Shown here one piece after another: positions 33,026 to 63,172 of a stretch of DNA of 64,000 nt (position 1 is its first letter; the number at the start of each line of letters is the position of its first letter). The notes under the pieces were generated by a model that saw only the letters and a program-made list of their open reading frames with translations, did no database searches and was not told the DNA's origin. The position numbers were made by a program, and so were the translations under genes. Location of the stretch: the NCBI RefSeq assembly GCF_000830005.1, contig NZ_CP010408.1:222636-286635 (forward strand), read 5' to 3'. This DNA is from Streptomyces vietnamensis (GTDB lineage: Bacteria > Actinomycetota > Actinomycetes > Streptomycetales > Streptomycetaceae).

Positions 33026-33320
33026 CTAGCCGAGGTCGAGGATCTCCCTCGCGGCAAGCCCTCCAGGCACCGGCTTGAGCGGGAGGAACGCAAACGGCCG
33101 GCGCCCACTTCCGCCGAGGCGGGTGGCAAGGGCGCCGGCCAACCGAAAACACACACTCCGGGAGACCCGAGAGGCGTATCTCGCTTCCGAGTGTATCCGT
33201 ACGACGCGCGGTCGCGGTCTCACCCCGCTTGCTGTCGGTGATGTAAGCTTGGTAATGTTTTTTTGTCGATGGGTCGTGGCAGCCCGTCGACACCGAACAC
33301 ACCAACCCCTTGGAGGCTCC
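33026..33320. other. Gene-free stretch with a divergent and a canonical leader module
   Basis: After the last CTAG (33026-33029) comes an 11-bp stem, GGCCGGCGCCC (33096-33106) with GGGCGCCGGCC (33130-33140). Its loop includes GTGGCA and it is followed by ACCGAAAACACACAC, the same downstream box as in the leader modules. It has no gene behind it and looks like a stranded leader. The canonical module follows at 33238. Confidence 0.5.
33238..33300 (+). promoter_or_regulatory. Leader module 1 (promoter + GTGGCA hairpin)
   Basis: GTGATG 33238-33243, then 9 bp, then the -10 TAATGT 33253-33258. The stem TCGATGGG / CCCGTCGA (33266-33273, 33283-33290; one G-U pair) has GTGGCA in its loop. ACCGAACAC follows and the gene starts 30 bp after the hairpin at 33321. 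Confidence 0.8.
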
Positions 33321-33728
33321 ATGTCCTTCGCCACCGGCGCCCCTGCCGACAGCCCGTCCCAGGCCGCGGCTCCCACACCCGTGTGGCCGGCCACCGCGGA
33401 GGCCGCCGAGGCCGAACTCGGCCGGCTCGCCGAGCTCCTGACCGAGGCCGACACCGCCGTCATCCCCGCCGCCGGCGTCCTCGCCATTCCCGACCTCGCC
33501 TACGGCCCGGGCGACACCACCGGCATCCGGGTGCGCACCACCAGCCACCCTCCGCACGCCCTGTACGTCATCGCCGCCGGCGAACTCACCCCGCACACCA
33601 GCGCGGACAGCGTCTTCGCCCACCTCCGCCCGCTCCTCGAGGCCGCGGCCCGCTCCTGCGACGGATGCGGCGCCGAGGCCGGCGTGCCGTGCAACCCGAA
33701 CTGCCAGTCCGACCCCTCGACCACCTGA
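33321..33728 (+). CDS. Hypothetical protein with C-terminal Cys cluster
   Basis: 135 residues from ATG 33321 after TTGGAGG. Pro/Ala-rich start, a helix (AEAELGRLAELLTEADTAVI), a beta part with GIRVRTTSHPPHALYVIAAG, then CDGCGAEAGVPCNPNC, a compact four-Cys cluster probably binding zinc. It is controlled by leader module 1. Confidence 0.75.
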   Translation: MSFATGAPADSPSQAAAPTPVWPATAEAAEAELGRLAELLTEADTAVIPAAGVLAIPDLAYGPGDTTGIRVRTTSHPPHALYVIAAGELTPHTSADSVFAHLRPLLEAAARSCDGCGAEAGVPCNPNCQSDPSTT

Positions 33729-33787
33729 CACACCCCGCCGGCGGGGCGCCGCAAGCGCCCCGCCACCCTGTGATGGAGGAAAAGAAA

Positions 33788-34840
33788 ATGATCCGCGCCG
33801 GACGCCTCGAGTACGTCCAGACCATGGCCGACCTGGCCGACACCCTCGGCAAGAAGCTCACCACCGTCCGCAACCAGAAGCCGTACGCCGCGGAAGGCCA
33901 CCCGGCACCGATCAGCTCGCCCAACTCCCGCGCCCAGCTCTGGGACGCGGAGCAGACCAAGGCCTACTACGCCGGCCAGCCCATCCCCGAGCTGCCCCAG
34001 GTCGACGACAACGAGGACCTCCTGGACCGCCACGAGGCCGCCGAGCTGCTCGGCATCAGCCCCGTGACCTGGAACGGCTACAAGAACGACCCGGACCTGG
34101 TCGACGGTATGGTCCTCGTGCCGGCAGGCCCCAAGGGCACTGAGCACTGGCCCCGCCGCCTGGTCCTCGCGTACAAGAACAAGCGTCCCGGCAGGGCAGC
34201 CGGAGGCGGCCGCCCCGCGGGCAGCGGCGATATGATCCCCCGCGACCAGATCCTGCCGCGGATCGCCGAGCTCCTGGACGCCGACCCCGCCATCACCCTG
34301 GAGACCGTCGCCGAGACTCTGGGCATCGCCAAGTTCCCCACCGCCCAGTCCGGTCTGGCCACCCTGCGCGGCCGGCGCATCGCCGACCTGGTCGAGGCCC
34401 AGCCCGGTCTGGACCCGAAGGCCGCCGCCCTCCAGCTGGGCTACCCCACCATCACCCACCGCGGCGCCATCACGATCGCCGAGCGGGAACTGCACGCCCG
34501 CAGCGCCAAGCCGTACCTGCAGCACACCGCGGACTTCCTGGCTGCGGCCGGCATCGCCCAGCAGGCCCAGGTGGAGATGCGCCAGCCCGACGGAGAGCAC
34601 CTCGCCGCCGCCGTGCCGCTCGAGACCCACCAGCCGGCGCCGGCCCTCGTGTGGGACGAGCGCTTCGGATGGCGGACCGCGACCAGCCGCCGGCACCCCA
34701 TCGGCAAGCCCACCGACACCCCGCCCGAGGGTGAGGGAATCCGCTACCTGGGCACCGGTCTCCGGCCCGATCCCGAAGAGCTCCTCGCCGCCCTGCGCGA
34801 CGGCCGCAAGGGAACCAAGCGTCCCCACACCACGCCCTGA
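33788..34840 (+). CDS. DNA-binding protein with several HTH-like segments (DUF6292-like end)
   Basis: 350 residues from ATG 33788 after GGAGGAAAAG. Several helix-turn-helix-like units are visible: MADLADTLGKKLTTVRNQKP, HEAAELLGISPVTWNGYKND, ITLETVAETLGIAKFPTAQS and PKAAALQLGYPTITHRGAIT. The C-terminus (LVWDERFGWRTATSRRHPIG) resembles DUF6292 proteins. Tandem HTHs reading repeats would suit a plasmid replication or partition protein, or a regulator of the leader modules (inference only). Confidence 0.65.
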   Translation: MIRAGRLEYVQTMADLADTLGKKLTTVRNQKPYAAEGHPAPISSPNSRAQLWDAEQTKAYYAGQPIPELPQVDDNEDLLDRHEAAELLGISPVTWNGYKNDPDLVDGMVLVPAGPKGTEHWPRRLVLAYKNKRPGRAAGGGRPAGSGDMIPRDQILPRIAELLDADPAITLETVAETLGIAKFPTAQSGLATLRGRRIADLVEAQPGLDPKAAALQLGYPTITHRGAITIAERELHARSAKPYLQHTADFLAAAGIAQQAQVEMRQPDGEHLAAAVPLETHQPAPALVWDERFGWRTATSRRHPIGKPTDTPPEGEGIRYLGTGLRPDPEELLAALRDGRKGTKRPHTTP

Positions 34841-34934
34841 ACCGCGCTCCGGTCACCGAGAGGCGGGCGCCGACGCCCGTACGCAATCCGGATCAGACCG
34901 TCAACCACACCCACGCAGCCAAGGAAGGCACAGC

Positions 34935-35744
34935 GTGATCACCAAGCAGCACGACGCCGACGCGTACGGCCAGGAGCTGGCCCGCATCAGCCACCACCAG
35001 CACGAGGCCACGAGCGCGCGGTTCACCGTCTTCCAGGCCCTGGCCGCCGCCGGGATCGGACACGAGCAGGCCGACGACATCGTGTCGAAGCTGGAGGCCG
35101 CGGCGGTGGCCGGCGCCCACACCTGGATCTCCAAGAGCAGCGCCCCGCACGGTTCCGACCCGCGGTTCGAGGACGGCTGGCACGAAGGGGTCCGCGAAGT
35201 CGCCAGCTACCTGCTGCGCATCGCCGACACCACCGCCACCACCGGGCACGGGCGCGCCGCCTCCAGCGCCATGCTGCTCGCCCACGTTCAGCAGCCGGTC
35301 TCCCCCGCCCCGGAGGAAGCGCCGACGGACGAACAGGCCCCGGCGCCACCGCTGGAGGCGAAGGACGTCCTGGCGGCGGCGGAACGCTTCCCGTGGGCCC
35401 TGGCCGCGCCGGACGAGCGCCACTGGCCGGACGGGGAGTTCCTGGACGTCGCCCTGAGCGCGGTGCGCGCCAAGGAACGCGAGGGATACATCGAGCGCCT
35501 GGAGGCGTTCGTGAAGCAGCGCCGCGCCCGCCTGGAGGAGCTGCTGCGCGTGTACGGGCCGGGCAGCATGCCCGCCTCGCAGGGCCGATACGCCCTGATC
35601 GGGCAGCCCGCAACCCTGGTCATCCTGGAGCGGATGGAGACCCACCCGTTCGGTCTGCGCGCCCGGTGGGAGAAGGAACTGGAGACCGTCCTGCTGGACG
35701 ACCTTGAGTTTGCGTGGGGGCCGCGCACCCGCCTCAGCCGGTGA
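34935..35744 (+). CDS. Hypothetical protein with a helical second half
   Basis: 269 residues from GTG 34935. The first half is helical (HHQHEATSARFTVFQALAAA, EQADDIVSKLEAAAVAGAHT). A Pro/Ala linker is followed by a helix pair (AKEREGYIERLEAFVKQRRA) and LVILERMETHPFGLRARWEK. No catalytic motif. It follows the multi-HTH gene in the same direction. Confidence 0.65.
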   Translation: MITKQHDADAYGQELARISHHQHEATSARFTVFQALAAAGIGHEQADDIVSKLEAAAVAGAHTWISKSSAPHGSDPRFEDGWHEGVREVASYLLRIADTTATTGHGRAASSAMLLAHVQQPVSPAPEEAPTDEQAPAPPLEAKDVLAAAERFPWALAAPDERHWPDGEFLDVALSAVRAKEREGYIERLEAFVKQRRARLEELLRVYGPGSMPASQGRYALIGQPATLVILERMETHPFGLRARWEKELETVLLDDLEFAWGPRTRLSR

Positions 35745-37411: not shown

Positions 37412-37615
37412 TCAGTGCTGGTCCCAGTCGACGCGACGGCGCTGGGGGAGCGGCGGCTCGATGCCGACGCGCAGCGCCAGCCGGACCGCCGCGCGGTCCC
37501 GCTTGTGCGCCGCCCGCTGGAGCCAAGTCCTGCTGCCGTCCTTCAAGAAGGGGGTCAGCCAGGGCCGCTCCTGGTACTGCAGGTGTGCGGGGCAGTCGTG
37601 GAAGGTACGGGCCAT
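37412..37615 (-). CDS. 67-residue basic hypothetical protein
   Basis: ATG 37615 follows GAGGAG on the minus strand. It reads MARTFHDCPAHLQYQERPWL and a basic helical end (LQRAAHKRDRAAVRLALRVG). Leader module 2, the only minus-strand copy, lies upstream, which supports that this is a real gene. Confidence 0.7.
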   Translation of the reverse strand: MARTFHDCPAHLQYQERPWLTPFLKDGSRTWLQRAAHKRDRAAVRLALRVGIEPPLPQRRRVDWDQH

Positions 37616-37644
37616 CTCGGGGCTCCTCGCTGTGGATTTGTCGT

Positions 37645-37717
37645 AGTGCGTGTTTCGCGGTCGCTGACCGGCTGCCACCGCCGATCAACTGAGACAACTA
37701 TAACCATCACTCATCAC
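37645..37717 (-). promoter_or_regulatory. Leader module 2 (minus strand)
   Basis: Read on the minus strand: GTGATG (37717-37712), 9 bp, TATAGT (37702-37697), then the stem GATCGGC / GCCGGTC (37686-37666, one G-U pair) with loop GGTGGCA, then ACCGCGAAACACGCAC. It drives the 67-residue gene. Together with module 3 it makes a divergent pair about 110 bp apart. Confidence 0.8.
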
Positions 37718-37824
37718 TTTGGTCAAGTGGGGGTGGCGTGACGCCGCCGTCCGGCGCGATGCGGGCGACCGAATGGGTGAACGCGAAATCGGGGCGAGGA
37801 AAAGGCCGTTCCGGCTTCCCGAAA

Positions 37825-37895
37825 GTGATGTGTGTGAGTTATAGTTGTCTTGTTGGTCGGGAGTGGCACCCGGCCAACACCCCCACCGAACTCAC
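37825..37895 (+). promoter_or_regulatory. Leader module 3
   Basis: GTGATG 37825-37830; TATAGT 37840-37845; stem GGTCGGG / CCCGGCC (37855-37861, 37869-37875; one G-U pair) with loop AGTGGCA; then CACCGAACTCACACG. The gene starts at GTG 37915. Confidence 0.85.
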
Positions 37896-37914
37896 ACGCT
37901 CCAGGGAGAAACCC

Positions 37915-38313
37915 GTGTCGAACTCCATGAAGATCACCGCCGGTCAGACCACCACCCGCACCCTGATCGACCTGATCCGCGCCATGGACGGCGAGCGCGC
38001 CACGACCATCACCTACGTCGACAGCAAGGGCGAGGAGTCGGTCCGCACCATCGAGATTCACAACATCCTCACCACCAGCAAGGGCGGCATCATCGTCCGC
38101 GCGATGTGCCGCACCCGGGGCGAGATGCGCACCTTCACCCTGGAGCAGATCAAGGCGTACACCGTCCACCGCATCCGCTTCGTGCTCACCGTCCCGGAGG
38201 AGAAGGCGGGGGAGGCCTTCCCTGTCGCGCACTTCGTGTCCAGCATCGAGCGGATGATCGACCTGGAGCTGGAGCGCGACTACCCGCTCCCCAAGGTGAT
38301 GCTCGCCGCGTAG
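37915..38313 (+). CDS. Stand-alone WYL-like domain protein
   Basis: 132 residues from GTG 37915. The order ATTITYVDSKGEESVRTIEI, then IVRAMCRTRGEMRTFTLEQI follows the WYL fold (I-Y-x-D-x-x-G strand, x-A-x-C-R strand, R-x-F-x-x-x-x-I end). WYL domains bind nucleic acids or nucleotides and regulate CRISPR, phage-defence and stress genes, usually fused to an HTH. Here there is no HTH. It could be the effector-binding half of a regulator acting on the leader modules (inference). Confidence 0.6.
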   Translation: MSNSMKITAGQTTTRTLIDLIRAMDGERATTITYVDSKGEESVRTIEIHNILTTSKGGIIVRAMCRTRGEMRTFTLEQIKAYTVHRIRFVLTVPEEKAGEAFPVAHFVSSIERMIDLELERDYPLPKVMLAA

Positions 38314-39372: not shown

Positions 39373-39445
39373 GTGATGAAAGATGGGTATAGTTTTCTCA
39401 TCGGGATGGGGTCCCGATGCGGCAGTGGCAGCCGCACACCGAAAA
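39373..39445 (+). promoter_or_regulatory. Leader module 4 (double hairpin)
   Basis: GTGATG 39373-39378; TATAGT 39388-39393. An extra hairpin (CATCGGGA / TCCCGATG) is inserted before the usual one, TGCGGC / GCCGCA (39418-39423, 39431-39436) with loop AGTGGCA. CACCGAAAACGCACC follows. The gene starts at GTG 39468. Confidence 0.8.
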
Positions 39446-39467: not shown

Positions 39468-40040
39468 GTGAACACTTCCCGCGCCGCGTACGCCGTCATC
39501 GACACCGCCCGCCGCCTGTGCCCCGGGGCTACGACCGTGGACGTCTACAACTACGGCGGAACCACGCGCCTGGACGTCTTCAAGGCAGACGCCGAGTACG
39601 ACCGGACGCTCCCGGGCTTCACCGTCGGCTCTGTCCGTGCGGCCCTGGACGGCGCCGCCGAGGCGTACGCGACTCGGGCCTTCGGCCCCCGCTCCGCCTG
39701 GCCCAAGCACTTCACCATTACCCACACCGGGCCCCTCGACGTCGCCGACGCCGACCGCACCGTCGGGGACCATGTCTTCAACGGCCGCGTCTGGACCGGC
39801 GTCGGCGAGCAGGCTGTCCAGGCAGCACACGATGTGCTCGACTACCGCCGCGAGATGGGCCGATCCGAGCTCATGCGCGTGGTCTTCGGATTCCAGTACG
39901 ACATGGCGGCCCGGAATCTGGAGCTGGCCACCGGCGCCCCGAAGGGGTACCGCCTCTTCGCCCTTGCCCGCTCCATCGTCAAGCACAACCCGGTGAGCCC
40001 CCGCTCCGCCTGGGTCGCGGCTGGCGCTGTCACCCGATAG
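39468..40040 (+). CDS. Hypothetical protein
   Basis: 190 residues from GTG 39468 after AAGGAGAG. AYAVIDTARRLCPGATTVDV and a beta part (FTITHTGPLDVADADRTVGD) are followed by helices. The ITHTG strand recurs in the 42705 protein (WTITHTGLPEGRWFLRVEAP), so the two may share a small domain. Function unknown. Confidence 0.7.
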   Translation: MNTSRAAYAVIDTARRLCPGATTVDVYNYGGTTRLDVFKADAEYDRTLPGFTVGSVRAALDGAAEAYATRAFGPRSAWPKHFTITHTGPLDVADADRTVGDHVFNGRVWTGVGEQAVQAAHDVLDYRREMGRSELMRVVFGFQYDMAARNLELATGAPKGYRLFALARSIVKHNPVSPRSAWVAAGAVTR

Positions 40041-40203: not shown

Positions 40204-40235
40204 GCGGCAGTGGCAGCCGCACCACCGAACACGCA
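40204..40235 (+). promoter_or_regulatory. Leader module 5 (hairpin only, no promoter)
   Basis: Stem GCGGC / GCCGC with loop AGTGGCA at 40204-40220, followed by CACCGAACACGCACC. There is no TATAGT promoter. It lies 163 bp after the previous gene and 30 bp before GTG 40251, so it acts inside a transcript. Confidence 0.75.
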
Positions 40236-40600: not shown

Positions 40601-40661
40601 GTGATGAATAGCATGTATAGTTGTCTTGATGGTCGGCGGTGGCAGCCGACCACCCGGAAAC
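40601..40661 (+). promoter_or_regulatory. Leader module 6 (closest to consensus)
   Basis: GTGATGAAT at 40601; TATAGT 40616-40621; stem GGTCGGC / GCCGACC (40631-40637, 40645-40651), loop GGTGGCA; then ACCCGGAAACGC. The gene starts at ATG 40682. Confidence 0.88.
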
Positions 40662-40681: not shown

Positions 40682-41395
40682 ATGAGCATTCACACCCTCG
40701 GCACGTCCCGACTCGATGCCGTCGTGATGGAGGGGACCGGTCACGGCTTCGCCCGGATCCGCCTCGCCGACGGCCACGCGGTCACCCTCAAGACGCGGCC
40801 CGGCGCCGATGTCGCGGAAGAGGTCTTCCTCTCCCCGGGCCTGACCGCTCCCGACACCGAGGCCTGGGAGAACGAGGACTCCTGGGAGGACTGGCTGACC
40901 GGCGGGACCCTCGGCAACGAAAGCGGGATGTTCCTGGACGTGCCCGCCGAGGCGCTCCGCGACCTGATCATCCAGCACGGCGGTGAGCACGACGACCAGG
41001 AGGGCGAGGACCCCGCGCCGAACGCCGAGAGCACGACCGCCGAGGAGACGGCCCAGGACCTGCTGGCCGAGCTGGCCGACCTGCACGGCGCGTTCGAGCA
41101 CGGCTACGGCGCCGACGACATCCGGCGCGCCTTCGGGCGCATCAGCGACGCGGGCGGCCCCTACCTGATCTGCGTCTGGGACGTCGCGGACGACTACGGG
41201 TTCGGCGGCAACGCAGAGTTCTACGCCGAGGACGAGAACGGCCTCTTCGAGCTCCGGCCGGACGTCTATGACTGGCTCGCCGGCCAACAGGACATCCCCG
41301 GCCCCGTCGAGACCTGGGTGGGCGCGCACCTCCCCGAGCTGGTCGAGTTCGCCGCCACCGACGACCGCCACAACTACGCCCGGACTGAGCGCTGA
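40682..41395 (+). CDS. Acidic hypothetical protein
   Basis: 237 residues from ATG 40682. The first part (LDAVVMEGTGHGFARIRLAD) is a beta-rich fold. The middle is very Glu/Asp/Thr-rich (about 105-125). The last part has WDVADDYGFGGNAEFYAEDE and ends in a helix. The strongly negative charge could mimic DNA, as in some phage inhibitors, but this is only a thought. A perfect hairpin (41406-41441) follows. Confidence 0.7.
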   Translation: MSIHTLGTSRLDAVVMEGTGHGFARIRLADGHAVTLKTRPGADVAEEVFLSPGLTAPDTEAWENEDSWEDWLTGGTLGNESGMFLDVPAEALRDLIIQHGGEHDDQEGEDPAPNAESTTAEETAQDLLAELADLHGAFEHGYGADDIRRAFGRISDAGGPYLICVWDVADDYGFGGNAEFYAEDENGLFELRPDVYDWLAGQQDIPGPVETWVGAHLPELVEFAATDDRHNYARTER

Positions 41396-42181: not shown

Positions 42182-42242
42182 GTGATGAAAGGTGATTATA
42201 GTTATCTTGTCGATCGGCGGTGGCAGCCGACGACACCGGACA
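42182..42242 (+). promoter_or_regulatory. Leader module 7
   Basis: GTGATG 42182-42187; TATAGT 42197-42202; stem TCGGC / GCCGA (42214-42218, 42226-42230) extended by GTC / GAC; loop GGTGGCA; then CACCGGACACACAC. The gene starts at ATG 42266. Confidence 0.83.
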
Positions 42243-42265: not shown

Positions 42266-42559
42266 ATGTTCTTCAACAGCCTCGCCCAGCTTCCCGCCTC
42301 CCGCGTCGACGTGGACGCGCTGCGCCAGGACGAGGCGCTGTGGCAGCACGGTCCGGACGGTCGGGGGTACGTCCCGCTGTGCAACCTCGTCCGGGGCTGC
42401 GGTGCGCCCGCCGAGTGGGTCATCGAGCACCCCTCCACGGGGACCCGCCGCTTCGTGTGCAAGGACTTTCACCCCGTCGAGGTGGTCACCGACGCGGTGG
42501 CCTGGTGGGTGACCGAAGCGATTGACATCGCTGAGTACCTGGCGAGCAAGCACGACTAG
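42266..42559 (+). CDS. Small hypothetical protein
   Basis: 97 residues from ATG 42266 after CCAGGAG. MFFNSLAQLPASRVDVDALR, LCNLVRGCGAPAEWVIEHPS and an acidic helical end. Three Cys may bind a metal. It is followed by a 10-bp hairpin and the promoterless module 8. Confidence 0.7.
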   Translation: MFFNSLAQLPASRVDVDALRQDEALWQHGPDGRGYVPLCNLVRGCGAPAEWVIEHPSTGTRRFVCKDFHPVEVVTDAVAWWVTEAIDIAEYLASKHD

Positions 42560-42599: not shown

Positions 42600-42650
42600 G
42601 GAGAGCCCCCGCGATATCAGCGGCATCACCCCGTTGAGCAGCACATCCCC

Positions 42651-42682
42651 GAGCGGCAGTGGCAGCCGCTCGGCACCGGAGA
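42651..42682 (+). promoter_or_regulatory. Leader module 8 (hairpin only)
   Basis: Stem GAGCGGC / GCCGCTC (42651-42657, 42665-42671), loop AGTGGCA, then GGCACCGGAGAACCAC. No promoter. ATG 42705 lies 33 bp after the hairpin. Confidence 0.8.
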
Positions 42683-42704: not shown

Positions 42705-44088
42705 ATGACACGCACGACTTTCGTTGCCTCCACCGGCTGTACCCGTATCAGCGAAACCCGCCACTACACCCACGCGGTCATCGCCGACCGCCGCGACGGC
42801 GAGGGCCGCATCGCGCACACCTGGTCCATGTCCGCGGCCAACGTCGCCCGGGCCGCCCGGGCCGCCGAGCGCGCGGGCTGGAAGAACGTCACGGTCGAGG
42901 AGGTGCACGTCCAGGAGAAGCCGGCCCGCACTCGCAGGGCGACCCCGAAGCAGGCGCCCGCCGCTGCCCAGCCGGCCCCGGCCGCCGAGCGCGAGCCGCT
43001 CGTCCTCTACGCCGTCCGCCCGGCTGCGGGCGGAGGTTTCGACGTCGTCAACACCTCGGGCCTGGTCGTCTCGGGCGACTGGCAGACCGAGGTCGGCGCC
43101 CAGGAGCGCGCCGACTACCTGAATGCCCAGGAGAACCGCAAGCGCGCCGAGGACGCCCTGACCGAACCGCAGCGGCGGGTGTACGCCGTCGTCAAGCGCG
43201 ACGGCGCGATCGGCGCCGGATACGGGCACAACCTCACCGCCGTCCGGAGCCTGCACGCCGCCGGCCTCGTCAAGCTCACCGAGTACGGCCCGGGCTCCTG
43301 GAACGCCGTCCACGTTCCGCCGCCCGCCGTCGGCCCGGCCGAGGCCGCCCCGGCGGCCGGTACGGGCGTACTGCCCCAGGACGCCGAACACCCGGCGGCC
43401 GCCCTGTCCGGGCAGCCGCTCGCCGACGTCACCGGCCCCCACGACCTCGGCGAGGTGGCCGGCTACTGGGTCCGGGCGGATGGCACCAGCGGCCGCCTGA
43501 CGGTCGGCTGGGTCGAGGACAGCAGGCTGAACCACCAGCGCCGACGGGCGGCCGCCCCTGGCCCGGCTGAGCGTCGCGAAGGAGCTGTTCGAGCGCACCG
43601 AAGGCTGGATCGTCGAGCCCGGCGACCAACCGTCCCTGATCCTCTGGCACGTGCCGACCCTGGATACCGCGGCCAAGCAGGGTGCCGCCGCCGAGCAGGC
43701 CCGGGGCGCGATCACCGACACCTGGACCATCACCCACACCGGCCTGCCCGAGGGCCGCTGGTTCCTGCGGGTCGAGGCTCCCGATTCCGACGCCGCCTTC
43801 GCGGCCGCCCTGGCCACCCGCGCGGGTCGCCTGGTCCAGCAGGCGGGGCATCGGCTCGGCGCGCGGCGTCTGCGGGAAGCGGACCTGGTCCGCACTGTCG
43901 GCGAGCGGGTCCGGCACGTGGCCAGCGGCCAGACCGGCACCGTCGAGGCAGTGGACGTACGGATGACCGGTGCCCACGCGTACCGGGACGGCGTGACCGT
44001 CGCCGTTGACAGCCGCTCCCGCAAGACCGCGCGCGCCCTGGAGTGGGAGCCCCTGCCGGCGGCCGAGGACCCCGAGGCTGCCTGCTGA
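42705..44088 (+). CDS. Two-part hypothetical protein with a one-base frameshift
   Basis: From ATG 42705 the frame reads to WVEDSRLNHQR. An extra C at 43541-43542 then shifts it. The natural continuation is DGRPPLARLSVAKELFERTE in the next frame, ending EWEPLPAAEDPEAAC at 44088. Rejoined it is about 460 residues: an N-terminal domain (CTRISETRHYTHAVIADRRD), a repeated ADYLNAQENRKRAEDALTEP helix, and a C-terminal domain with WTITHTGLPEGRWFLRVEAP. A sequencing error, a pseudogene or programmed shifting are all possible. Confidence 0.65.
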
Positions 44089-44250: not shown

Positions 44251-44315
44251 GTGATGATGAATAGTGAGTATAGTTGTCTTGCGGTCGGCGGTGGCAGTCG
44301 ACCACACCGGACACG
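44251..44315 (+). promoter_or_regulatory. Leader module 9
   Basis: GTGATGATGAAT at 44251; the in-phase hexamer is ATGATG at 44254, 15 bp before TATAGT 44269-44274. Stem GGTCGGC / GTCGACC (44283-44289, 44297-44303; one G-U pair), loop GGTGGCA; then ACACCGGACACGC. The gene starts at ATG 44339. Confidence 0.83.
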
Positions 44316-44338: not shown

Positions 44339-44899
44339 ATGATCATCCGCACGCCGCTCCCCAACGCCCTGCACGCAGCCGCCCGGGCCCGCGCCATCGC
44401 CGGTATCGCCCGACGGAGGAGCGTGCTCAACCACCCGGCCGAGGAAGCGCTGACCACGGTCGCCGAGCTCCTCGACGACGTCGCGCTGACCTTCGAGACC
44501 GACCTCCCCCCGGTCCTGGACGGTGTCGTCATCACCAACACGATCCCCTTCGACGCCTCCCTGCTCCTCGCCATCGCCGAAGACGTCATCGCCCAGAACA
44601 CGGCGACCGGGCTCCCCGCCTGCCTCGGCCAGTACGTCACCAGCGCCGTGTTCGGCACCCTCGAACTGCCCCGGCTCCTGCACCCCGTCAGCGCCCAGCT
44701 CGCCTCCCAGGAGACCAGCCTGCGCGCTGCTCTCCAGCTGCTGCACGAGCGCCACCTGACGGGAGCCGGTGAGCGGCCGGAGACGGCGGGGCTCTACCTG
44801 GAAGCCGCATTCAAGCTCCACCTGAGCTGGGGGCGCCTCGCCGCCGCCGTCGCCGTGGACAACGCCCGCCCCTGCAACCGGCCGACCGTCGCCCAGTAG
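44339..44899 (+). CDS. Helical hypothetical protein
   Basis: 186 residues from ATG 44339 after GGAGAG. Mostly helix (ALHAAARARAIAGIARRRSV, LAIAEDVIAQNTATGLPACL, LHPVSAQLASQETSLRAALQ). No motif was recognised. It is followed after 138 bp by another small gene. Confidence 0.7.
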   Translation: MIIRTPLPNALHAAARARAIAGIARRRSVLNHPAEEALTTVAELLDDVALTFETDLPPVLDGVVITNTIPFDASLLLAIAEDVIAQNTATGLPACLGQYVTSAVFGTLELPRLLHPVSAQLASQETSLRAALQLLHERHLTGAGERPETAGLYLEAAFKLHLSWGRLAAAVAVDNARPCNRPTVAQ

Positions 44900-45439: not shown

Positions 45440-45450
45440 TCCACCCCCGG

Positions 45451-45485
45451 CCGGGCGGCAGTGGCAGCCGCCCGGCGCCGAACTC
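45451..45485 (+). promoter_or_regulatory. Leader module 10 (hairpin only, 9-bp stem)
   Basis: CCGGGCGGC / GCCGCCCGG (45451-45459, 45467-45475) with loop AGTGGCA, then CGCCGAACTCACC. No promoter. The PAPS-reductase-like gene starts 35 bp on at ATG 45511. Confidence 0.83.
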
Positions 45486-45510: not shown

Positions 45511-46206
45511 ATGGACATGCCCACCCGCCGCCGGCTGCTGGAGGGGATCCGGCGCGCCCACCAGGCCGACGCCGCGTACACCGCCGCCGGCCGCGCCCGC
45601 ACCCGGGCCGCCAAGGCCACCGCCGCACACGCCCGCATCACCCGCGATCCGCAACTGCAGGGCGCCTCTGACGAGCTGGAGGCTGCGCAGGCCGTCCACG
45701 CTGGTCTCGTCCGCCGTGAGCAGGAGGCCCGGGCCAAGGTCCACCGGACCTTCACCGCGGCCCGCGCGGCCAACCGCGTCCTCGCGGCGCTCTACACCCC
45801 GCACGCTCCGGGCCGCGGAACCGGCGGCGGGAGCCGGTCCGACGTCGCGGCCGCCCTCCTCGGCGAGCTCGCCGCGATGCCCCGCGAGCTCGTCCTGGCC
45901 GCGGACAAAATCCTCGTCTCCACGAGCGGTGGCAAGGACTCGCTCGTCTGCGGGCATCGCGTGGTCACCCTGGCGGCCGAGGCCGGCTGCCTGGACAAGG
46001 TGGTCATGGTCCACGCGGATCTGGGGGAGGAGTCCGAATGGCCGGGGGTGCGTGAGCTCGCGCAGCGCCAGGCCGAGCGGTGGGGCGTCGAGTTCATCGT
46101 GGTCCAGGCCGACCGCGGCCTGCTCGGCCTCGTCGAGAAGCGCGGCATGTGGCCCGACGCGGCCCGCCGGCTGTGCACAGTTATCTGCACCAACTCCTCT
46201 CGTTGA
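45511..46206 (+). pseudogene. 5' part of a PAPS-reductase-like gene interrupted by a transposon
   Basis: It starts at ATG 45511 after CAGAGGAG. A long charged coiled coil (about 1-105) precedes an ATP-pyrophosphatase fold: LVSTSGGKDSLVCGHRV (PP-loop SGGKDS), VVMVHADLGEESEWPGV, and GMWPDAARRLCT, where the transposon enters at about 46178. The rest is at 52214-52500. The intact type adenylates or reduces a sulfur or nucleotide substrate. Many plasmid and phage copies are linked to DNA phosphorothioation or defence, which is only a possibility here. Confidence 0.8.
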
Positions 46207-46245
46207 TCGACGTGATGGTCAGTGCGATCGACGAGGAGGAACACC

Positions 46246-47442
46246 TTGGAACTGCGACAGGAACTGATCGAGGGGCGGGCGGAGCTGCCCCGGGTGGGGG
46301 CCGTTGTCCCCGCTCGGGGCGTCCACCCGCCGTACATCGTCGTGAACGCGTACGACGACGAGATCGAGGCGGCTACCGCCTACCTGCGGGATCTGGCACT
46401 GAACGACTGCAGTCCGCTGACGGTACGCAGCTACGGGTACGGCCTGCTGCGGTGGTTCCGGCTGCTGTGGCTGCTGGGGGTGGCGTGGGAGAAGGCGACC
46501 GAGGCTGAGGTCGCGGTGCTGGCGGGGTGGCTGCGGACGGCCTCGAATCCGCAGCGACGGCGGACTCAACCGGGCGGACACGTGCCCGGGTCGGTGAACC
46601 TCAGGACCGGCAAGCCGACGCTCCGTGCCGGATACGCGCCCAGAACGATCAACCATGCGTTGTCGGTGGTCAGCGGCTTCTACGGGTTCCACGCCTATCA
46701 GGGCAACGGGCCGGTGGTCAACCCTGTCCCCATCTCGCCGCAGCGCCGACATGCCCTTGCGCACCGGAGTCCGCTGGAGCCGCGGGCGGTTGTGGGGCGG
46801 GCCCGGCTGCGGCAGAAGGTCTCCGACCGGCCGCCCCGTTCGATTCCCGACCGGCTGTGGGACGAGCTGTTCGATCGCATGGGCTGTGAGCGTGACCGAG
46901 CACTGCTGGAGTGTTATGTCTCCAGCGGCGCCCGCGCGGTCGAACTGCTCGGGGTGGGGGTGAACGACATCGACTGGGCCGGCCAGCGGATCTACGTGAT
47001 CTCCAAGGGCACCCGGGAGAGGGAAGCGGTGCCGGCCTCGCCGCAGGCGTTCGTCCGTCTGGCCCGGTATCTCGACGAGGCGGGCACGCCGTCACGGGGC
47101 GAGTCGGTCTGGTGAACCCGTCGCGGGAGCGATCGTCCCCTGTCCTACTGGGCGATGCGCCGGATCATGCAGCGGGCGAACGAGCTGCTGGGCACGAACT
47201 GGACCCTGCACGACCTTCGGCACACGGCGGCGTCCCGGATGGCCAACGGCGGGAAGCTCACCCCTGTCGAGGTCCAAGCGATCATGCGGCACGCCAACAT
47301 CCAGACCACTAGCCGCTACCTGACGGCGCGGGTGGAGGAGATGTTCGACAAGCTCGCGGAGCACTACAGCACGCCGCGGCCGGCGATGAGCTACCCCACT
47401 GGGTACTCCGCGGATGACATCAAGGCGGTGTTCGGTGGCTAG
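46246..47442 (+). pseudogene. tnpA: tnpA homologue with one nonsense codon
   Basis: TTG 46246 follows GAGGAGG. The frame matches copy 1 TnpA throughout (LPRVGAVVPARGVHPPYIVV, LHDLRHTAASRMANGGKLTP, IMRHANIQTTSRYLTARVEE) but reads GESVW then TGA at 47113-47115, where copy 1 has VWRARRG. A single C-to-T change in a CGA codon explains it. All catalytic residues lie after the stop, so the product is dead. Confidence 0.85.
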
Positions 47443-57710: not shown

Positions 57711-57773
57711 GTGATGAATAAATGCTATAGTTGTCTTGTGGTCGACGGTGGCAGTCGACCGAAACCGGAAACC
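57711..57773 (+). promoter_or_regulatory. Leader module 11
   Basis: GTGATGAAT at 57711; TATAGT 57726-57731; perfect stem GGTCGAC / GTCGACC (57740-57746, 57754-57760), loop GGTGGCA; then AAACCGGAAACCCGC. The gene starts at ATG 57794. Here both stem sides changed together relative to module 6. Confidence 0.88.
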
Positions 57774-57793: not shown

Positions 57794-58447
57794 ATGCCCC
57801 TGGACTTCACCCACCCGCACGAATTCAGCTGCTTCGGCACGCTCCACCCCGACCGCCTCGTTGCGTGGTCCTTCGGGGACCCCTACGTCGAGTGGGAGCT
57901 CACCGGCCTCTTCTCCGGCCCCGGTACCTACACCACCGTCCCGCTCGACGCCGAAACGGACATGCACTACCACCCCGGCGACCAGGGCGCCCCCAACACC
58001 GTGGCTCAGCGCCTCGCCGCCCGCTACGGCTTCGACGGCCTCGACGTCCGGGGCCCCGTCCACTTCACCGGCCCGAGCGGTGAGACCGACCGCGCCCTGG
58101 GCATCGCCCCGGACGCCTTCGACGTCCTCTACGCGCGGGTCAAGGACATCTGCGCCGACCTCGGCGTCCGTACCTGGTGCAAGCTCCACCCCGGCGACAC
58201 CGTCAGCGTCCGCTGCACCGACCTGGAACGCGGCGACACCTACTGGTTCCTGAACACCCCCCACCGCTTCCAGGGCTTCAGGGATTTTCCCGCTGACAGC
58301 AAGACGCTGGAGTTCATCCCCGGCGCCCGCATCCTGGTCTGCGACGACGAGTTCACGGTGACCGCCTACGGCACCTACGAGTGCCGCGCGGACCGCGCCC
58401 CCGCCGGGTACTGGCAGCGCACCGGCAACCAGCTGCTCCCCGCCTGA
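57794..58447 (+). CDS. Hypothetical protein
   Basis: 217 residues from ATG 57794 after CTGGAG. MPLDFTHPHEFSCFGTLHPD, then DPYVEWELTGLFSGPGTYTT, then VSVRCTDLERGDTYWFLNTP. Beta-rich and aromatic. No family was recognised. A 13-bp hairpin follows. Confidence 0.7.
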   Translation: MPLDFTHPHEFSCFGTLHPDRLVAWSFGDPYVEWELTGLFSGPGTYTTVPLDAETDMHYHPGDQGAPNTVAQRLAARYGFDGLDVRGPVHFTGPSGETDRALGIAPDAFDVLYARVKDICADLGVRTWCKLHPGDTVSVRCTDLERGDTYWFLNTPHRFQGFRDFPADSKTLEFIPGARILVCDDEFTVTAYGTYECRADRAPAGYWQRTGNQLLPA

Positions 58448-59459: not shown

Positions 59460-59849
59460 CCCCGCACCTCCTCGCGCCCCGGCACGGCTCACCAGCCGCG
59501 CCGGGGCGCAGTCATGCCCGGCCACCCAGGTGCATCCGGCCGGCGGTGGGCGGCCGGGCGTTCCCTCCAGCCCGGGACGCGGCCGACGCGCCCTCGGCCG
59601 GCCGGGGAGCCTCCACCGCGGCCGCCGCCGGCCCGCGCGGCCGGCGCTTGAACGCCGGCGCCCTGGAGTAGAGGACGGGCCGGCGGCACGTGCGCGGGCT
59701 CCGCCGGCGCCCCTCGGGCATGCCGCTGAACAGGGGAAATAGCGGCCTGCGCCGTTCACAAAGTGATGAGTGGCAGGTATAGTTGTGTTGTGGGTCGGTG
59801 GTGGCAGCCGACCCGCACCGAAAACCAACTCCCAGGAAAGGGGACCCCT
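59460..59849. other. Gene-free stretch with hairpins and module 12
   Basis: A 10-bp hairpin (GCGCCCCGGC / GCCGGGGCGC, 59474-59509) probably ends the previous operon. A very GC-rich stretch without coding bias follows, then leader module 12. Confidence 0.55.
59763..59826 (+). promoter_or_regulatory. Leader module 12
   Basis: GTGATG 59763-59768; TATAGT 59778-59783; stem GGGTCGG / CCGACCC (59792-59798, 59808-59814) extended by a G-U pair, loop GGTGGCA; then GCACCGAAAACC. The gene starts at ATG 59850. Confidence 0.85.
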
Positions 59850-60221
59850 ATGCCCACCCTCCTCCAGAACGGCTACGCCCTGCGGGTCGAGCCCACAGGC
59901 GGCTTCCGCCTGCTCGACTGGGACGCCGACACCTGCCCGCAGGACGCGCTCGGCGCCGACCAGGTCCGATCCGTCGACCTGACCACCCAGCTGATCATGT
60001 GGACCGACGAGCTGGCCGTCCCGCTCGGCCTCCCCGCCAACGCCCCCGCGCGCCAGCTCCTCCACGCCTACCAGGCCAACCCCACCCCCGTCTGCGGCGT
60101 GGCCGTCTTCACCGGGTCCACGCGCGCTGGAGCGCTGCTCGGCCTCACCGAGGACCAGGCACTCATGCTCGTCGACCGCTACTTCAACCGTCACCGCGAC
60201 GTCCCCCGACCGCGCCGCTAA
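59850..60221 (+). CDS. DUF3846-like protein
   Basis: 123 residues from ATG 59850 after AGGAAAGGGG. VRSVDLTTQLIMWTDELAVP, then LGLPANAPARQLLHA, then CGVAVFTGSTRAGALLGL fits DUF3846 (WxDExG, GLPxN, GxAVxTG). The family is common on plasmids and phages. Its role is unknown. Confidence 0.65.
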   Translation: MPTLLQNGYALRVEPTGGFRLLDWDADTCPQDALGADQVRSVDLTTQLIMWTDELAVPLGLPANAPARQLLHAYQANPTPVCGVAVFTGSTRAGALLGLTEDQALMLVDRYFNRHRDVPRPRR

Positions 60222-60236
60222 ACGCAGGTCACCCCC

Positions 60237-60263: not shown

Positions 60264-60287
60264 TCGAATTCGACGAAAGGAAAACCC

Positions 60288-60554
60288 GTGAAATACACCA
60301 TCATCGGAGACTGGTACGAAGTCTGGGATCTCGCCGATTCGTTTGCGGTCGTCGCCGAGGGAGCGGATTACGAGGAGGCCAAGGCGAACGCGGCCGCCGC
60401 GGTGCTGGAGGCCTTCCCGTGGCGCGCCGAGGAGGACGGCGAGACCCCCGAGACCCTCTGGGGAGGAGACAACGGCGCCTACGTCGTCGCCGCCTTCCTC
60501 GGAGACCTCGGCGCCCAGACGGTCGACGCCGCGAGCTTCCGGCTGATCGCATGA
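60288..60554 (+). CDS. Small acidic hypothetical protein
   Basis: 88 residues from GTG 60288 after AAAGGAAAACC. YTIIGDWYEVWDLADSFAVV, then AKANAAAAVLEAFPWRAEED. The stop overlaps ATG 60551, so it is co-translated with the next gene. Confidence 0.7.
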   Translation: MKYTIIGDWYEVWDLADSFAVVAEGADYEEAKANAAAAVLEAFPWRAEEDGETPETLWGGDNGAYVVAAFLGDLGAQTVDAASFRLIA

Positions 60555-61099
60555 CGGCCACCGCGACGCAGACGTACACCGTCATCGGCCTGACCCTCGA
60601 CGTCGACAGCACCGAGCTGCTCATCGCGGCCGTCCTCGCAGGCCCCGTCGCGGACCAGGTCGAGCTGCTGGCCACCAGCGAGGACGACTTCACGCGGTGG
60701 GCCGAGGAGTTCAACGCGCCCGACCCGGACACCGCCGCGACCATGGCCTACGCCTACTGCCGCGACTTCGGCTACGCCGAGGAGAGGACCGCCGGGGAGT
60801 ACCTCCAGCGGGTTCTGGCCGACGAGGGCATCGGATCCACCGGAGGTGGGCACCCGGGCTCCGGCCGCTCCTGGATCTCCGTCGCCACCCCTGACGGGGG
60901 CGAGATCCTGTTCACCGGCCAGGACAGGCACGAGGCCGAGGCGGACTACCCGCTGACCGATCACGCCGGTTGGCTCGCCTGCGGCTACGACGGGGGCGGA
61001 GTGGAATTCACCGTCCTGTACGACTCCCATGACCCCGACCTGGCCGCCGACACTGCCGCCGCCATAGCGGCCGTGCGCGCCAGCCTCGCCACCGGCTAA
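60551..61099 (+). CDS. Hypothetical protein
   Basis: 182 residues from ATG 60551 (ATGA overlap). TYTVIGLTLDVDSTELLIAA, then FTRWAEEFNAPDPDTAATMA, then WISVATPDGGEILFTGQDRH. The first 20 residues resemble the start of the previous gene product (both begin with a YT(I/V)IG strand), suggesting related domains. An 18-bp hairpin follows. Confidence 0.7.
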   Translation: MTATATQTYTVIGLTLDVDSTELLIAAVLAGPVADQVELLATSEDDFTRWAEEFNAPDPDTAATMAYAYCRDFGYAEERTAGEYLQRVLADEGIGSTGGGHPGSGRSWISVATPDGGEILFTGQDRHEAEADYPLTDHAGWLACGYDGGGVEFTVLYDSHDPDLAADTAAAIAAVRASLATG

Positions 61100-61111
61100 A
61101 CGCCTATCCGC

Positions 61112-61154
61112 GCTGCGCCCCCACCGTGCCGATTCCGCACGGTGGGGGCGCAGC
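61112..61154. terminator. Strong hairpin terminator
   Basis: GCTGCGCCCCCACCGTGC pairs perfectly with its complement (18 bp) around GATTCC, 12 bp after the stop. Confidence 0.85.
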
Positions 61155-61323
61155 CGCGCTCGGCCGACAGGGCGCAGGGCTGAACCTCCTTCCGAGCAGC
61201 GGGACCTTCTGACGACTCCACTCCGCGCCGGCCGCGGGGGCGGTGCCGGCGGTACAGGCGCGGCCGGCGGAGGACGGCCGGGCAACAGTTCACCCAGGTG
61301 GGCGGGTAATGAGGGCACCGAAA

Positions 61324-61386
61324 GTGATTCATGTGTGTTATAGTTGTCTTGTTGGTCGGCGGTGGCAGCCGATCACAAACCGAATC
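61324..61386 (+). promoter_or_regulatory. Leader module 13
   Basis: GTGATT 61324-61329 (one change); TATAGT 61339-61344; stem GGTCGGC / GCCGATC (61354-61360, 61368-61374; one G-U pair), loop GGTGGCA; then AAACCGAATCCACGC. The gene starts at ATG 61412. Confidence 0.85.
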
Positions 61387-61411
61387 CACGCACAGCCGTG
61401 AGGAGACACCC

Positions 61412-61666
61412 ATGTCCGACACCCTGTTCCGCACCCTCGACCTCATCGAGCCCGGCGACCTGGTCCTCTACCACGGCAGCATTCCCGAGCACCACGGGCT
61501 CTACCTGGCCCAGCCGTGCGACTGCTTCTACTGCGGGCGGGCGGACCACCTCGGGAGCGACGACACCCGCTACCGCCTGACGGACCCGTTCGCCGAGGAC
61601 CCGGACGCCTGCACGGTGCACCACGTGCGCCGCCGCTCCATCACCCGGTCGGCCGCCAACGCCTGA
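61412..61666 (+). CDS. Small Cys-containing hypothetical protein
   Basis: 84 residues from ATG 61412 after GTGAGGAG. LFRTLDLIEPGDLVLYHGSI, then YLAQPCDCFYCGRADHLGSD. CDCFYC plus His could bind zinc. The LIEPGDLVLYHGSI part looks like a small beta barrel. Confidence 0.7.
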   Translation: MSDTLFRTLDLIEPGDLVLYHGSIPEHHGLYLAQPCDCFYCGRADHLGSDDTRYRLTDPFAEDPDACTVHHVRRRSITRSAANA

Positions 61667-61675
61667 CCCTCCCTC

Positions 61676-61701
61676 GGGGCGCAGCCGTCCGGCTGCGCCC
61701 C
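61676..61701. terminator. Hairpin before module 14
   Basis: GGGGCGCAGCC / GGCTGCGCCCC, 11 bp, loop GTCC, 10 bp after the stop. Confidence 0.65.
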
Positions 61702-61707
61702 GCACCG

Positions 61708-61745
61708 GGCGGCGGGGAGTGGCACCCCGCCGCCGCCGAGGACAC
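61708..61745 (+). promoter_or_regulatory. Leader module 14 (hairpin only, 10-bp stem)
   Basis: GGCGGCGGGG / CCCCGCCGCC (61708-61717, 61725-61734), loop AGTGGCA, then GCCGAGGACACCAC. No promoter. ATG 61766 is 31 bp on. The stem shares almost no bases with module 6 yet keeps the loop. Confidence 0.83.
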
Positions 61746-61765
61746 CACTCACGAAAGGGCAGACC

Positions 61766-62263
61766 ATGACCGACAAGACCCTCATCGACGGCACCGCCAA
61801 CCCGGACAACCTGGGCCCCGACGCCATGCGCTGGACCCCCGAGCCGGAGCAGCCGGCCGTTTCCCTGGCCGACCTCTTCGGAGCGGTCATCCACAGGTAC
61901 AGCCGAGCCCAGGCCCTCGCCGACGGGGCCTTGGTCGCCGTCGGCGCTGACATCGCCCGAGAGGCCAGGTTCGGGGTTCCGGTGGCGCTCACCGCGGCCG
62001 CGTGGGCTGACTGCGTCGCCTGGACCGACGAGGACAACCGGCAGACCTATCAAGACGAGTCGGGCCGCCTCTGGGACGTGCTCTGGATGACCCACCACGC
62101 CATCCGACGGTCCAACGGAGGGAGGTCTTGCACTGTAGAGCTCTACCGGGTCCCGCGCGACGGAGAGAGCCACGAGAGCGAGCAGACGTGGCTGCTCGCC
62201 ACGTGCGGGCCCGGCGATGACGGGGAGCCTGTGATCACGATCTCTCTTCCGGGCGAGGACTGA
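61766..62263 (+). CDS. Hypothetical protein
   Basis: 165 residues from ATG 61766 after GAAAGGG. ADLFGAVIHRYSRAQALADG, then LVAVGADIAREARFGVPVAL, then WADCVAWTDEDNRQTYQDES. This order, a helix followed by ADG-x-LV and FP-like VALT, is shared by a widespread family of small plasmid and phage proteins (named DUF6573 as I recall). Function unknown. Confidence 0.65.
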   Translation: MTDKTLIDGTANPDNLGPDAMRWTPEPEQPAVSLADLFGAVIHRYSRAQALADGALVAVGADIAREARFGVPVALTAAAWADCVAWTDEDNRQTYQDESGRLWDVLWMTHHAIRRSNGGRSCTVELYRVPRDGESHESEQTWLLATCGPGDDGEPVITISLPGED

Positions 62264-62275
62264 CAGTCGGAAGCC

Positions 62276-62309
62276 GCGCCCCACCTCTTTCCGGCGAGGG
62301 GTGGGGCGC
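62276..62309. terminator. Hairpin terminator
   Basis: GCGCCCCACC / GGTGGGGCGC, 10 bp, 13 bp after the stop at 62263. Confidence 0.7.
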
Positions 62310-62376
62310 AGTGCGCTTCGCGGCCCTTCCCGCATGCGGAAATCCCCCCGAGAAAGATCCGCGCGACCCCCCAGGA

Positions 62377-62437
62377 GTGGTGTATATGAGTTATAGTTGT
62401 CTCGTTGGTCGGTGGTGGCAACCGGCCAGGAAACCGG
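62377..62437 (+). promoter_or_regulatory. Leader module 15
   Basis: GTGGTG 62377-62382 (one change); TATAGT 62392-62397; stem GGTCGGT / ACCGGCC (62407-62413, 62421-62427; one G-U pair), loop GGTGGCA; then AAACCGGAAGC. The closing pair is T-A instead of C-G. The gene starts at ATG 62460. Confidence 0.83.
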
Positions 62438-62459
62438 AAGCAGACCGAGAGGAATCGGC

Positions 62460-62891
62460 ATGGCAATCACGTCGCACGAGCGGACCCCGTATGAGGTTGA
62501 GCGCGCCGCTGCGCTGTTGATGGGCTTCTTCAACGCGGTGGGGGACGGCTGCCACGTTCTCGTCGTCGCGGCATCGGCGAACGGCGACACCCTCTCGATT
62601 CCCGTTCCGTTCCACAACGACGGCGAGACGACGGACTTGGACCCGGATGACGCTCTTGAGGCGATGATGCTCCTCACCCTCGCCGCCATCGTGGGCGGTG
62701 GCGCGGTGATCCGCACGAACTTCGCCAACCAGACCTCCGAGGTGAGGGGGTGGAAGCTGGTGGAGTTCTACGCCAAGCCGCTCAGTGCTTCGGAGATCTT
62801 CAGCGTCTACTGCACGGATGCGGAGACGGGGGAGTTGATCGCGCCGGAGTGGGGTGTGGAGTACTTGGCTGCGCCCCGTCTGACGGTCTGA
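62460..62891 (+). CDS. Hypothetical protein
   Basis: 143 residues from ATG 62460 after GAGAGGAA. YEVERAAALLMGFFNAVGDG, then LSIPVPFHNDGETTDLDPDD, a hydrophobic stretch (ALEAMMLLTLAAIVGGGAVI) and an end with LIAPEWGVEYLAAPRL. The hydrophobic stretch is possibly a membrane segment or a buried helix. GC3 is slightly lower than neighbours. Confidence 0.68.
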   Translation: MAITSHERTPYEVERAAALLMGFFNAVGDGCHVLVVAASANGDTLSIPVPFHNDGETTDLDPDDALEAMMLLTLAAIVGGGAVIRTNFANQTSEVRGWKLVEFYAKPLSASEIFSVYCTDAETGELIAPEWGVEYLAAPRLTV

Positions 62892-63108
62892 CGCGGGGGC
62901 TCCGGGGTGCGGGTGCTCTGCCCGCGCCCCGGAGCTTCCCCGGTCCGCCAGGGCTGCTGGACGGCGGCGCCCGCCTCGGCCTCCGGCCCCGTGCTGCCCC
63001 CGTTTTCTGGTCGCTTTCGGGCCTTGGCTCTTCGGACCCCGCCCGGCCCGGTTGCGGCCGTGTCGCGGCCGGTTGCCGGCCGCAGGACGCCCTCGCAGGG
63101 TTTCCAAA

Positions 63109-63172
63109 GTGATGAATGTGCGTTAAGGTTGTCTCGTTGGTCGATCGTGGCAGTCGGCCTTCCCCGAGTCCG
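63109..63172 (+). promoter_or_regulatory. Leader module 16
   Basis: GTGATGAATG at 63109; -10 is TAAGGT 63124-63129; stem GGTCGAT / GTCGGCC (63139-63145, 63153-63159; two G-U pairs), loop CGTGGCA; then CCCCGAGTCCG. The gene starts at GTG 63197. This is the most diverged promoter-bearing copy. Confidence 0.75.

Follow-up and report, generated by a model that had tools for sequence, protein, structure and literature searches.

What kind of signal precedes so many of the small genes near the end of a Streptomyces plasmid, and does it act as DNA or as part of the message? The DNA analysed here, referred to as the window, is a stretch of 64,000 nucleotides from Streptomyces vietnamensis (G000:C2:222636-286635). 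It forms the right end of the 286,635-bp replicon C2, which is taken as a linear plasmid because its ends are inverted repeats of each other, though imperfect ones (82% over 297 alignment columns). An original prediction, made from the letters of the window, had described 16 gene leaders with a hairpin whose loop ends in GTGGCA and had placed them on a plasmid, a setting with which both the terminal repeat and the plasmid relatives agree. Computation establishes the hairpin, the covariation of its stem, the preference for the sense strand, the anchoring to start codons and the distribution over replicons. As far as literature and database searches reach, this leader is undescribed, and it is common on Streptomyces linear plasmids.

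The two strands of the window together contain 36 copies of GTGGCA, and a scan of these hexamers recovered the same 16 sites as 7-nt NGTGGCA loops closed by five or more consecutive base pairs, G·U included. Over all positions the same loop and stem criterion gives a background of 1.07%, and the next hexamer by count in the scan reaches 10 of 292. The loop begins with G, A or C, and the uninterrupted stems measure 5-11 bp instead of the predicted 5-10 bp. From the loop end to the start codon 35-57 nt were measured, which overlaps with the predicted distance of about 30-50 bp and exceeds it at the upper end. The positions under which the hairpins had been reported belong in 12 of 16 cases to an upstream promoter-like box (33238 is a variant box, 44251 lies 3 nt ahead of the box start); only 40204, 42651, 45451 and 61708, the copies without such a box, coincide with the first stem base or lie no more than 2 nt from it. 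Single-sequence folding indicates strong stems of free sequence in most window copies. A covariance model built from the 16 copies finds its own copies with E<=2.3e-7, as expected for a training set, and the next window match has E=0.0023. The window gave no match at gathering score to any Rfam 15 family (T-box, riboswitches etc.), in line with the expectation that no named RNA family is involved; a lax Rfam search with one leader pointed to two snoRNA families, far under their gathering scores.

Across the 16 window copies double-sided changes are seen at seven of nine pairs, and the covariation score is 0.541 compared to 0.205 after shuffling, a value reached by none of 500 shuffles. Sliding the partner by 1-3 columns abolishes this covariation. 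Over nine pairs 88.2% of the cells are standard. The statement that all non-Watson-Crick pairs are G-U did not hold strictly, as five of 112 cells in the innermost seven pairs are non-standard (A·C twice, C·A, U·C and G·G once each). Among 138 distinct outside sequences, taken from the best 150 outside matches, 96.9% of the cells pair, double changes affect all eight pairs and the score is 0.502 against 0.234 after shuffling; this alignment was fitted to the model and leans towards the structure. Likewise, GTGGCA is present in 146 of the 150 model matches, a loop which the model itself favours.

A set free of that bias was obtained from 238 annotated coding sequences (CDS) of 20 plasmid loci, many of them mutually related, in which sites were not chosen by pairing. 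The commonest 6-mer upstream of these CDS is GTGGCA. Where it lies 25-75 nt ahead of an annotated start it is enclosed by a stem of at least 5 bp in 74 of 83 cases, compared to five of 113 elsewhere in the same DNA. The innermost seven pairs of the 55 distinct sequences among the 83 leader sites comprise 385 cells, of which 307 are Watson-Crick, 48 are G·U and 8 are C·A, leaving 22 of other kinds, and the model-selected set agrees (169 G·U and 19 C·A cells). Because G·U and C·A would swap on the antisense strand, the sense strand is the folding strand. The predicted selection on RNA pairing is supported by the covariation in window and outside copies and by the ratio of G·U to C·A.

Taken over all copies, the element consists of a stem of 5-13 bp of free sequence and a 7-nt loop, mostly RGUGGCA. 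A second conserved part, the ACCGAAnACaCac box between hairpin and Shine-Dalgarno sequence, had been overlooked before: 3' of the hairpin follows an A/C-rich stretch with an ACCGAAnAC box, of which CCG[AG] is found in 147 of 164 distinct copies, and a Shine-Dalgarno-like string together with a start codon could be identified in 161 of them. The leaders at L354, L367, L371, L376 and L385 are variants in which stem and loop differ (TGTGGCAA, GCGGCA, GCAGCA) and the CCGAAGA box is similar.

The promoter-like box has the consensus GTGATG-N9-TATAGTTGTCT, or a lineage variant of it. In 122 distinct promoter-coupled copies gTGATg occupies positions -15 to -10 relative to the first T of TATAGTTGTCT, a conserved -35 element is absent, and 119 of them have 21-23 nt between TATA and the loop. 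If TATAGT is taken as the -10 hexamer, the predicted transcription start would be the purine at the hairpin base. A box search of C2 allowing up to 3 mismatches gave 14 sites, each with a copy of the element at or shortly past the 3' end of the box; beside two chromosomal box sites, both with 3 mismatches, no copy of the element is listed. Where the window boxes, for example 57711-57736, have GTGATG (about -27 to -22), other plasmid lineages carry different blocks, with a similar TTNTCTTGTTGG downstream.

About a quarter of the distinct copies (46) have no adjacent box, and 44 of these lie 34-46 nt ahead of the start codon, a distance shared by 91 of the 114 promoter-coupled copies for which a start was found. 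Mainly because the box-less copies stay anchored to the start codon, we place the element in the mRNA leader. Some of them sit directly behind large GC hairpins, which are possible terminators. Promoter-coupled copies mostly open the loop with G (100 of 116) and the others with A (39 of 46), a difference for which shared descent inflates any p-value. The counts of start distance, orientation and first loop base were taken from GTGGCA matches whose stem has 5 bp or more and are hence not evidence of loop invariance. Two spurious matches (L166:41160 and L225:17707) were excluded from these counts and from the tally of distinct hairpins; they are included in the logo (122) and leader (164) counts.

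On C2 the covariance model R1 detects 19 copies with at least 35.3 bits, and nothing on the 8.87-Mb chromosome exceeds 26.7 bits. The search of other plasmids with such a model, which had been proposed along with the prediction, yielded 176 matches with E<=0.01 in 33 other loci (648,075 bases) that were chosen for carrying matches or belonging to related plasmids. Plasmid records resembling window positions 30000-54000 are almost all from Streptomyces (133 of 142), and the same applies to those found with a 54-nt leader query (35 of 39). Four annotated plasmids carry the hairpin, with an uninterrupted stem and within 110 nt, at 15 of 41, 12 of 34, 11 of 26 and 13 of 33 CDS, and orthologous genes on related plasmids tend to retain it. 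Of the 126 copies on the nine replicons with coordinates, 116 are oriented towards the nearer end. Copies on W02 and W05 have a median end distance of about 50 kb, so that the terminal position is a tendency and no rule.

With strict filters, matches of E<=1e-4 were found in 19 of 392 Streptomyces genomes; three of these contain at least 15-16 copies (a lower bound, as scoring covered 16 candidates per genome), one contains six and the rest one or two, not all of them leader-like. Single matches in ten genomes of other genera were not recognised as leaders. One of these, in another actinomycete family, is a hairpin-like GTGGCA site with 34.5 bits (L325, G415:C343:28480-28520, minus strand). 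The single-contig genome G352 of about 8.2 Mb has a leader with a GTAGCA loop near both apparent ends (G352:C1:6260 and 8209791), both directed outward.

The gene most widely associated with the leader encodes a DUF3846 protein. Relatives of the window gene are found on 25 plasmid records, 24 of them from Streptomyces. All 24 Streptomyces genes are directed towards the closer end of their record, and for 23 that end is no more than about 7 kb away; on W02 the gene is 37 kb in, and one record is marked circular. Their leaders, picked by gene and not by loop, contain GTGGCA in 22, GTAGCA in one and GCGGCA in one of 24 cases. GTGGCA or GTAGCA precedes the start (or the match, if the start is unannotated) by 38-66 nt in 23 of 24, and an uninterrupted stem of at least 5 bp is present in 18. 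Upstream of the DUF3846 gene on the remaining record, a Cnuibacter plasmid, neither GTGGCA nor a variant was found. On SLP2 of S. lividans, a species for which a DUF3846 protein of 130 aa is listed, the leader at 3,570-3,611 precedes the DUF3846 gene, and a second copy with an interrupted stem precedes the gene at 662-1,450. The 22 DUF3846 matches in 256 Streptomyces genomes comprise six with a hairpin found by script and four judged variant-like by eye; because the other 12 have none, DUF3846 genes elsewhere are often without the leader.

Further partners of the leader are genes for a plasmid DNA polymerase III beta subunit, DUF6573, DUF3560 and DUF932 proteins, a cytosine methyltransferase, a PAPS-reductase-family protein and a stand-alone WYL protein, the last of which also carries a leader on pRVR1. 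This gene content appears to recall anti-restriction and establishment regions of other plasmids; the text of PMC11541004 contains no DUF932, DUF3560 or DUF3846.

We lean towards a structured mRNA leader that marks a putative regulon of Streptomyces linear plasmids, with loop and box read by a shared RNA-binding factor which would control translation or decay. The message of promoter-coupled copies would begin at or beside the hairpin base, and the near-invariant loop together with the ACCGAAnAC box would be recognised by one factor, encoded by the plasmid or by the host. Such a factor could set translation or decay of the leader genes jointly, the sign of this control being a guess, and joint control would probably time expression after entry of the plasmid into a cell. 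The timing of entry or establishment and the identity of the reader are the weakest steps of this proposal. DUF3846 and WYL proteins are candidates for the reader. The best-placed guess is DUF3846, since on 23 of 24 plasmid records the leader precedes the very gene that encodes it. A tentative and rather doubtful scheme has this plasmid-coded protein bind the GUGGCA loops of its own message and of others, up to some twenty per plasmid in all; the end-facing genes would then be expressed in a burst on entry and afterwards be silenced at the RNA level. PMC11804915 describes WYL domains as able to bind single-stranded nucleic acid. The WYL gene and the divergent gene for a 67-aa protein (window 37412-38313), each with its own leader, occur in all 11 replicon sets with at least seven copies, and among the 392 genomes close orthologues of the two are confined to the three with at least 15-16 copies.

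Several observations weigh against the regulon proposal. No WYL or 67-aa protein was found in the stretches examined of W07, W08, G151 and G154, and G176, which has six copies, gave no match to either. Since they were not found on these low-copy replicons, the two proteins are unlikely to be general readers of the loop; their presence may be a trait of the high-copy lineage and not of the element. The predicted fold of DUF3846 had no convincing or informative neighbour in a structural search. Transcript starts and processing are predicted from sequence, and a TATAGTT-like string further upstream (within 80 nt) is found in eight of the 46 box-less copies. The single-sequence folds at 40210 and 63147 do not surpass those of shuffled sequences, and the minimum-energy fold at 44291 is another structure. 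The matches of R1 and R2 and the alignment A4 were fitted to the structure and are biased towards it, and many of the loci compared are related plasmids, so that the counts are non-independent. Neighbour genes of DUF3846 (L378:4948, L382:4483, L383:4428 and L387:4445) have GC-rich hairpins without a GTGGCA loop at the same place before the start. Finally, the role in entry or establishment is deduced from position and gene content only.

The hairpin could also be a passive 5' stabiliser, whose terminal stem shields the message from 5'-end-dependent decay and needs no specific reader of the loop. This would suit the likely start at the hairpin base suggested by the promoter logo, the strong free-sequence stems of most copies and some terminal genes with GC hairpins and no loop motif at the same spot. 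However, a near-invariant GUGGCA loop and a conserved ACCGAAnAC box are superfluous for shielding, and the loop is retained in copies without an adjacent box, which makes this explanation unlikely. We regard a signal at the level of transcription as decidedly unlikely. Here the nascent hairpin would alter RNA polymerase by antitermination or pausing, similar to put or nut sites, and permit read-through of long operons; the constant distance between box and hairpin and the promoterless copies right behind possible terminators could be understood in this way. An antiterminator has no need of the start distance that the box-less copies hold, though, and a site past the terminator is on its wrong side.

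An ssDNA (single-stranded DNA) signal in transfer or end replication, either a Frpo-like promoter or a priming site, is very unlikely: it would account for the direction of the copies towards the nearer replicon end, and G·T wobble exists in DNA too, but the promoter-like box lies upstream of the hairpin and is not folded inside it, and the element is anchored to start codons. A protein bound to double-stranded DNA at an inverted repeat overlapping the transcription start would fit the promoter-coupled copies, in which the repeat covers the predicted +1. Against such an operator, which we consider extremely improbable, stand the freely varying arms with pairing kept, the tolerance of G·U above C·A on the sense strand (48 versus 8) and the 46 distinct copies without an adjacent promoter-like box. 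Barely credible is a kissing interaction of the loop with the anticodon loop of tRNA-Gly(GCC); UGGCA is complementary to UGCCA, but the tRNA-Gly(GCC) loops examined in this genome are UUGCCAA and leave the first conserved G of GUGGCA unpaired.

The positions of all window copies and of the genes named above are given in Table 1. The PAPS-reductase-like gene (window 45511-47115) has a frame of 231 aa compared to a CDS of 1,242 nt in its relative on L161, and the frame may be interrupted. Beside the leader cluster, at about 30500-33030 of the window, there is similarity to transposase genes of the IS630 and IS701 types on other plasmids.

Table 1. Leader copies 1-16 and associated genes in the window (ORF, open reading frame; HTH, helix-turn-helix).
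Feature	Position	Strand	Basis
Promoter-like box 1, GTGATG-N9-TAATGT variant	33238..33263	+	box search, logo
Hairpin 1, 11 bp, loop CGTGGCA, ahead of ORF 33321-33728	33264..33292	+	stem scan, folding
Promoter-like box 2	37692..37717	-	box search
Hairpin 2, 10 bp, loop GGTGGCA, ahead of 67-aa ORF 37412-37615	37663..37689	-	stem scan
67-aa protein gene, divergent from WYL gene	37412..37615	-	gene comparison across replicon sets
Promoter-like box 3	37825..37850	+	box search
Hairpin 3, 11 bp, loop AGTGGCA, ahead of WYL gene	37851..37879	+	stem scan
Stand-alone WYL-domain protein, 132 aa, no HTH detected	37915..38313	+	domain search
Promoter-like box 4, extra hairpin between box and element	39373..39398	+	box search, folding
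Hairpin 4 (loop site 39425), 6 bp, loop AGTGGCA, ahead of ORF 39468-40040	39418..39436	+	stem scan
Hairpin 5, 5 bp, loop AGTGGCA, promoter-like box not adjacent, fold does not surpass shuffles	40204..40220	+	stem scan, folding
Promoter-like box 6	40601..40626	+	box search
Hairpin 6, 8 bp, loop GGTGGCA, ahead of ORF 40682-41395	40630..40652	+	stem scan
Promoter-like box 7	42182..42207	+	box search
Hairpin 7, 5+5 bp, one-base bulge, loop GGTGGCA, ahead of ORF 42266-42559	42208..42235	+	stem scan, folding
Hairpin 8, 9 bp, loop AGTGGCA, no adjacent promoter-like box, ahead of ORF 42705-44009	42649..42673	+	stem scan
Promoter-like box 9	44254..44279	+	box search
Hairpin 9, 7 bp, loop GGTGGCA, ahead of ORF 44339-44899, minimum-energy fold differs	44283..44303	+	stem scan, folding
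Hairpin 10, 10 bp, loop AGTGGCA, no adjacent promoter-like box, ahead of PAPS-reductase-like ORF 45511-46206	45450..45476	+	stem scan
Promoter-like box 11	57711..57736	+	box search
Hairpin 11, 8 bp, loop GGTGGCA, ahead of ORF 57794-58447	57739..57761	+	stem scan
Promoter-like box 12	59763..59788	+	box search
Hairpin 12, 11 bp, loop GGTGGCA, ahead of DUF3846 gene	59789..59817	+	stem scan, covariance model
DUF3846 protein gene (PF12957), most widespread leader partner found	59850..60221	+	domain search, plasmid comparison
Promoter-like box 13	61324..61349	+	box search
Hairpin 13, 8 bp, loop GGTGGCA, ahead of ORF 61412-61666	61353..61375	+	stem scan
Hairpin 14, 10 bp, loop AGTGGCA, right behind large GC hairpin, no adjacent promoter-like box, ahead of ORF 61766-62263 (relatives annotated DUF6573)	61708..61734	+	stem scan
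Promoter-like box 15	62377..62402	+	box search
Hairpin 15, 9 bp, loop GGTGGCA, ahead of ORF 62460-62891	62405..62429	+	stem scan
Promoter-like box 16, TAAGGT variant	63109..63134	+	box search
Hairpin 16, 7 bp, loop CGTGGCA, ahead of ORF 63197-63496, fold does not surpass shuffles	63139..63159	+	stem scan, folding

The end regions of these linear plasmids are rich in genes without a named function, and the shared leader groups up to about 20 such genes per plasmid into one putative regulon. It provides a handle for the search of further genes as well as a small RNA target with a near-invariant loop for fishing the binding protein, and the copies on SLP2 make it testable in S. lividans, a standard strain of the laboratory. 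If the reading of entry and establishment is true, the leader would be an actinobacterial, RNA-level counterpart to the repressor-based and ssDNA-based timing of establishment genes in other bacteria.

Among the known systems, CsrA/RsmA sites present GGA in the loop of a leader hairpin and were rejected, as the 16 window loops are NGTGGCA without GGA. The letters of the PafBC motif are unlike the GTGATG box. With the PafBC-type promoters that have a -26 motif (PMC11804915), the likeness is confined to the GTGATG block at about -27 to -22 by inferred numbering and to the lack of a conserved -35; PafBC is an HTH-WYL activator, whereas the plasmid WYL protein shows the WYL domain only. ssDNA promoters (Frpo/ssi) form their hexamers within the folded single strand in the account of PMC8708921, and this layout is not that of the leader, in which the promoter-like box ends ahead of the hairpin. 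The parallel drawn in the original prediction to start-associated sequences (SAS) of mycobacteriophages is a formal one. The SAS of Cluster K mycobacteriophages comprises 13 bp at the ribosome-binding site, typically 3-7 bp from the start, and the ESAS consists of conserved 17-bp inverted-repeat arms with a variable spacer (PMC3203893). Conservation on orthologous genes is the common feature, but the Streptomyces leader reverses the layout of the ESAS in that its loop is constant and its arms vary, and 34-46 nt usually separate it from the start. The 13-bp SAS GGGATAGGAGCCC has no site with up to 2 mismatches on either strand of the window.

Plasmids of the pLS20 family from Bacillus carry EGeRS1, a region of 400-600 bp with many inverted repeats in which no promoter was found (PMC8708921). 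It resembles the leader as a conserved structured region shared by several transcription units of a plasmid; the operons that it precedes serve the establishment of a conjugative plasmid, and its mechanism was unknown to the authors. The leader differs in size, as its conserved stretch is composed of a box of about 26 nt and a leader of about 70 nt with a hairpin of some 30 nt that in most cases follows a promoter-like box, and it resides in another host phylum and on another replicon type. EGeRS2, in contrast, is a DNA operator for the predicted ribbon-helix-helix repressor Reg(p576), and the passages of PMC8708921 that describe it contain no RNA reader. It nevertheless resembles the leader as one signal common to several plasmid promoters, and its logic is expression on entry until the repressor accumulates.

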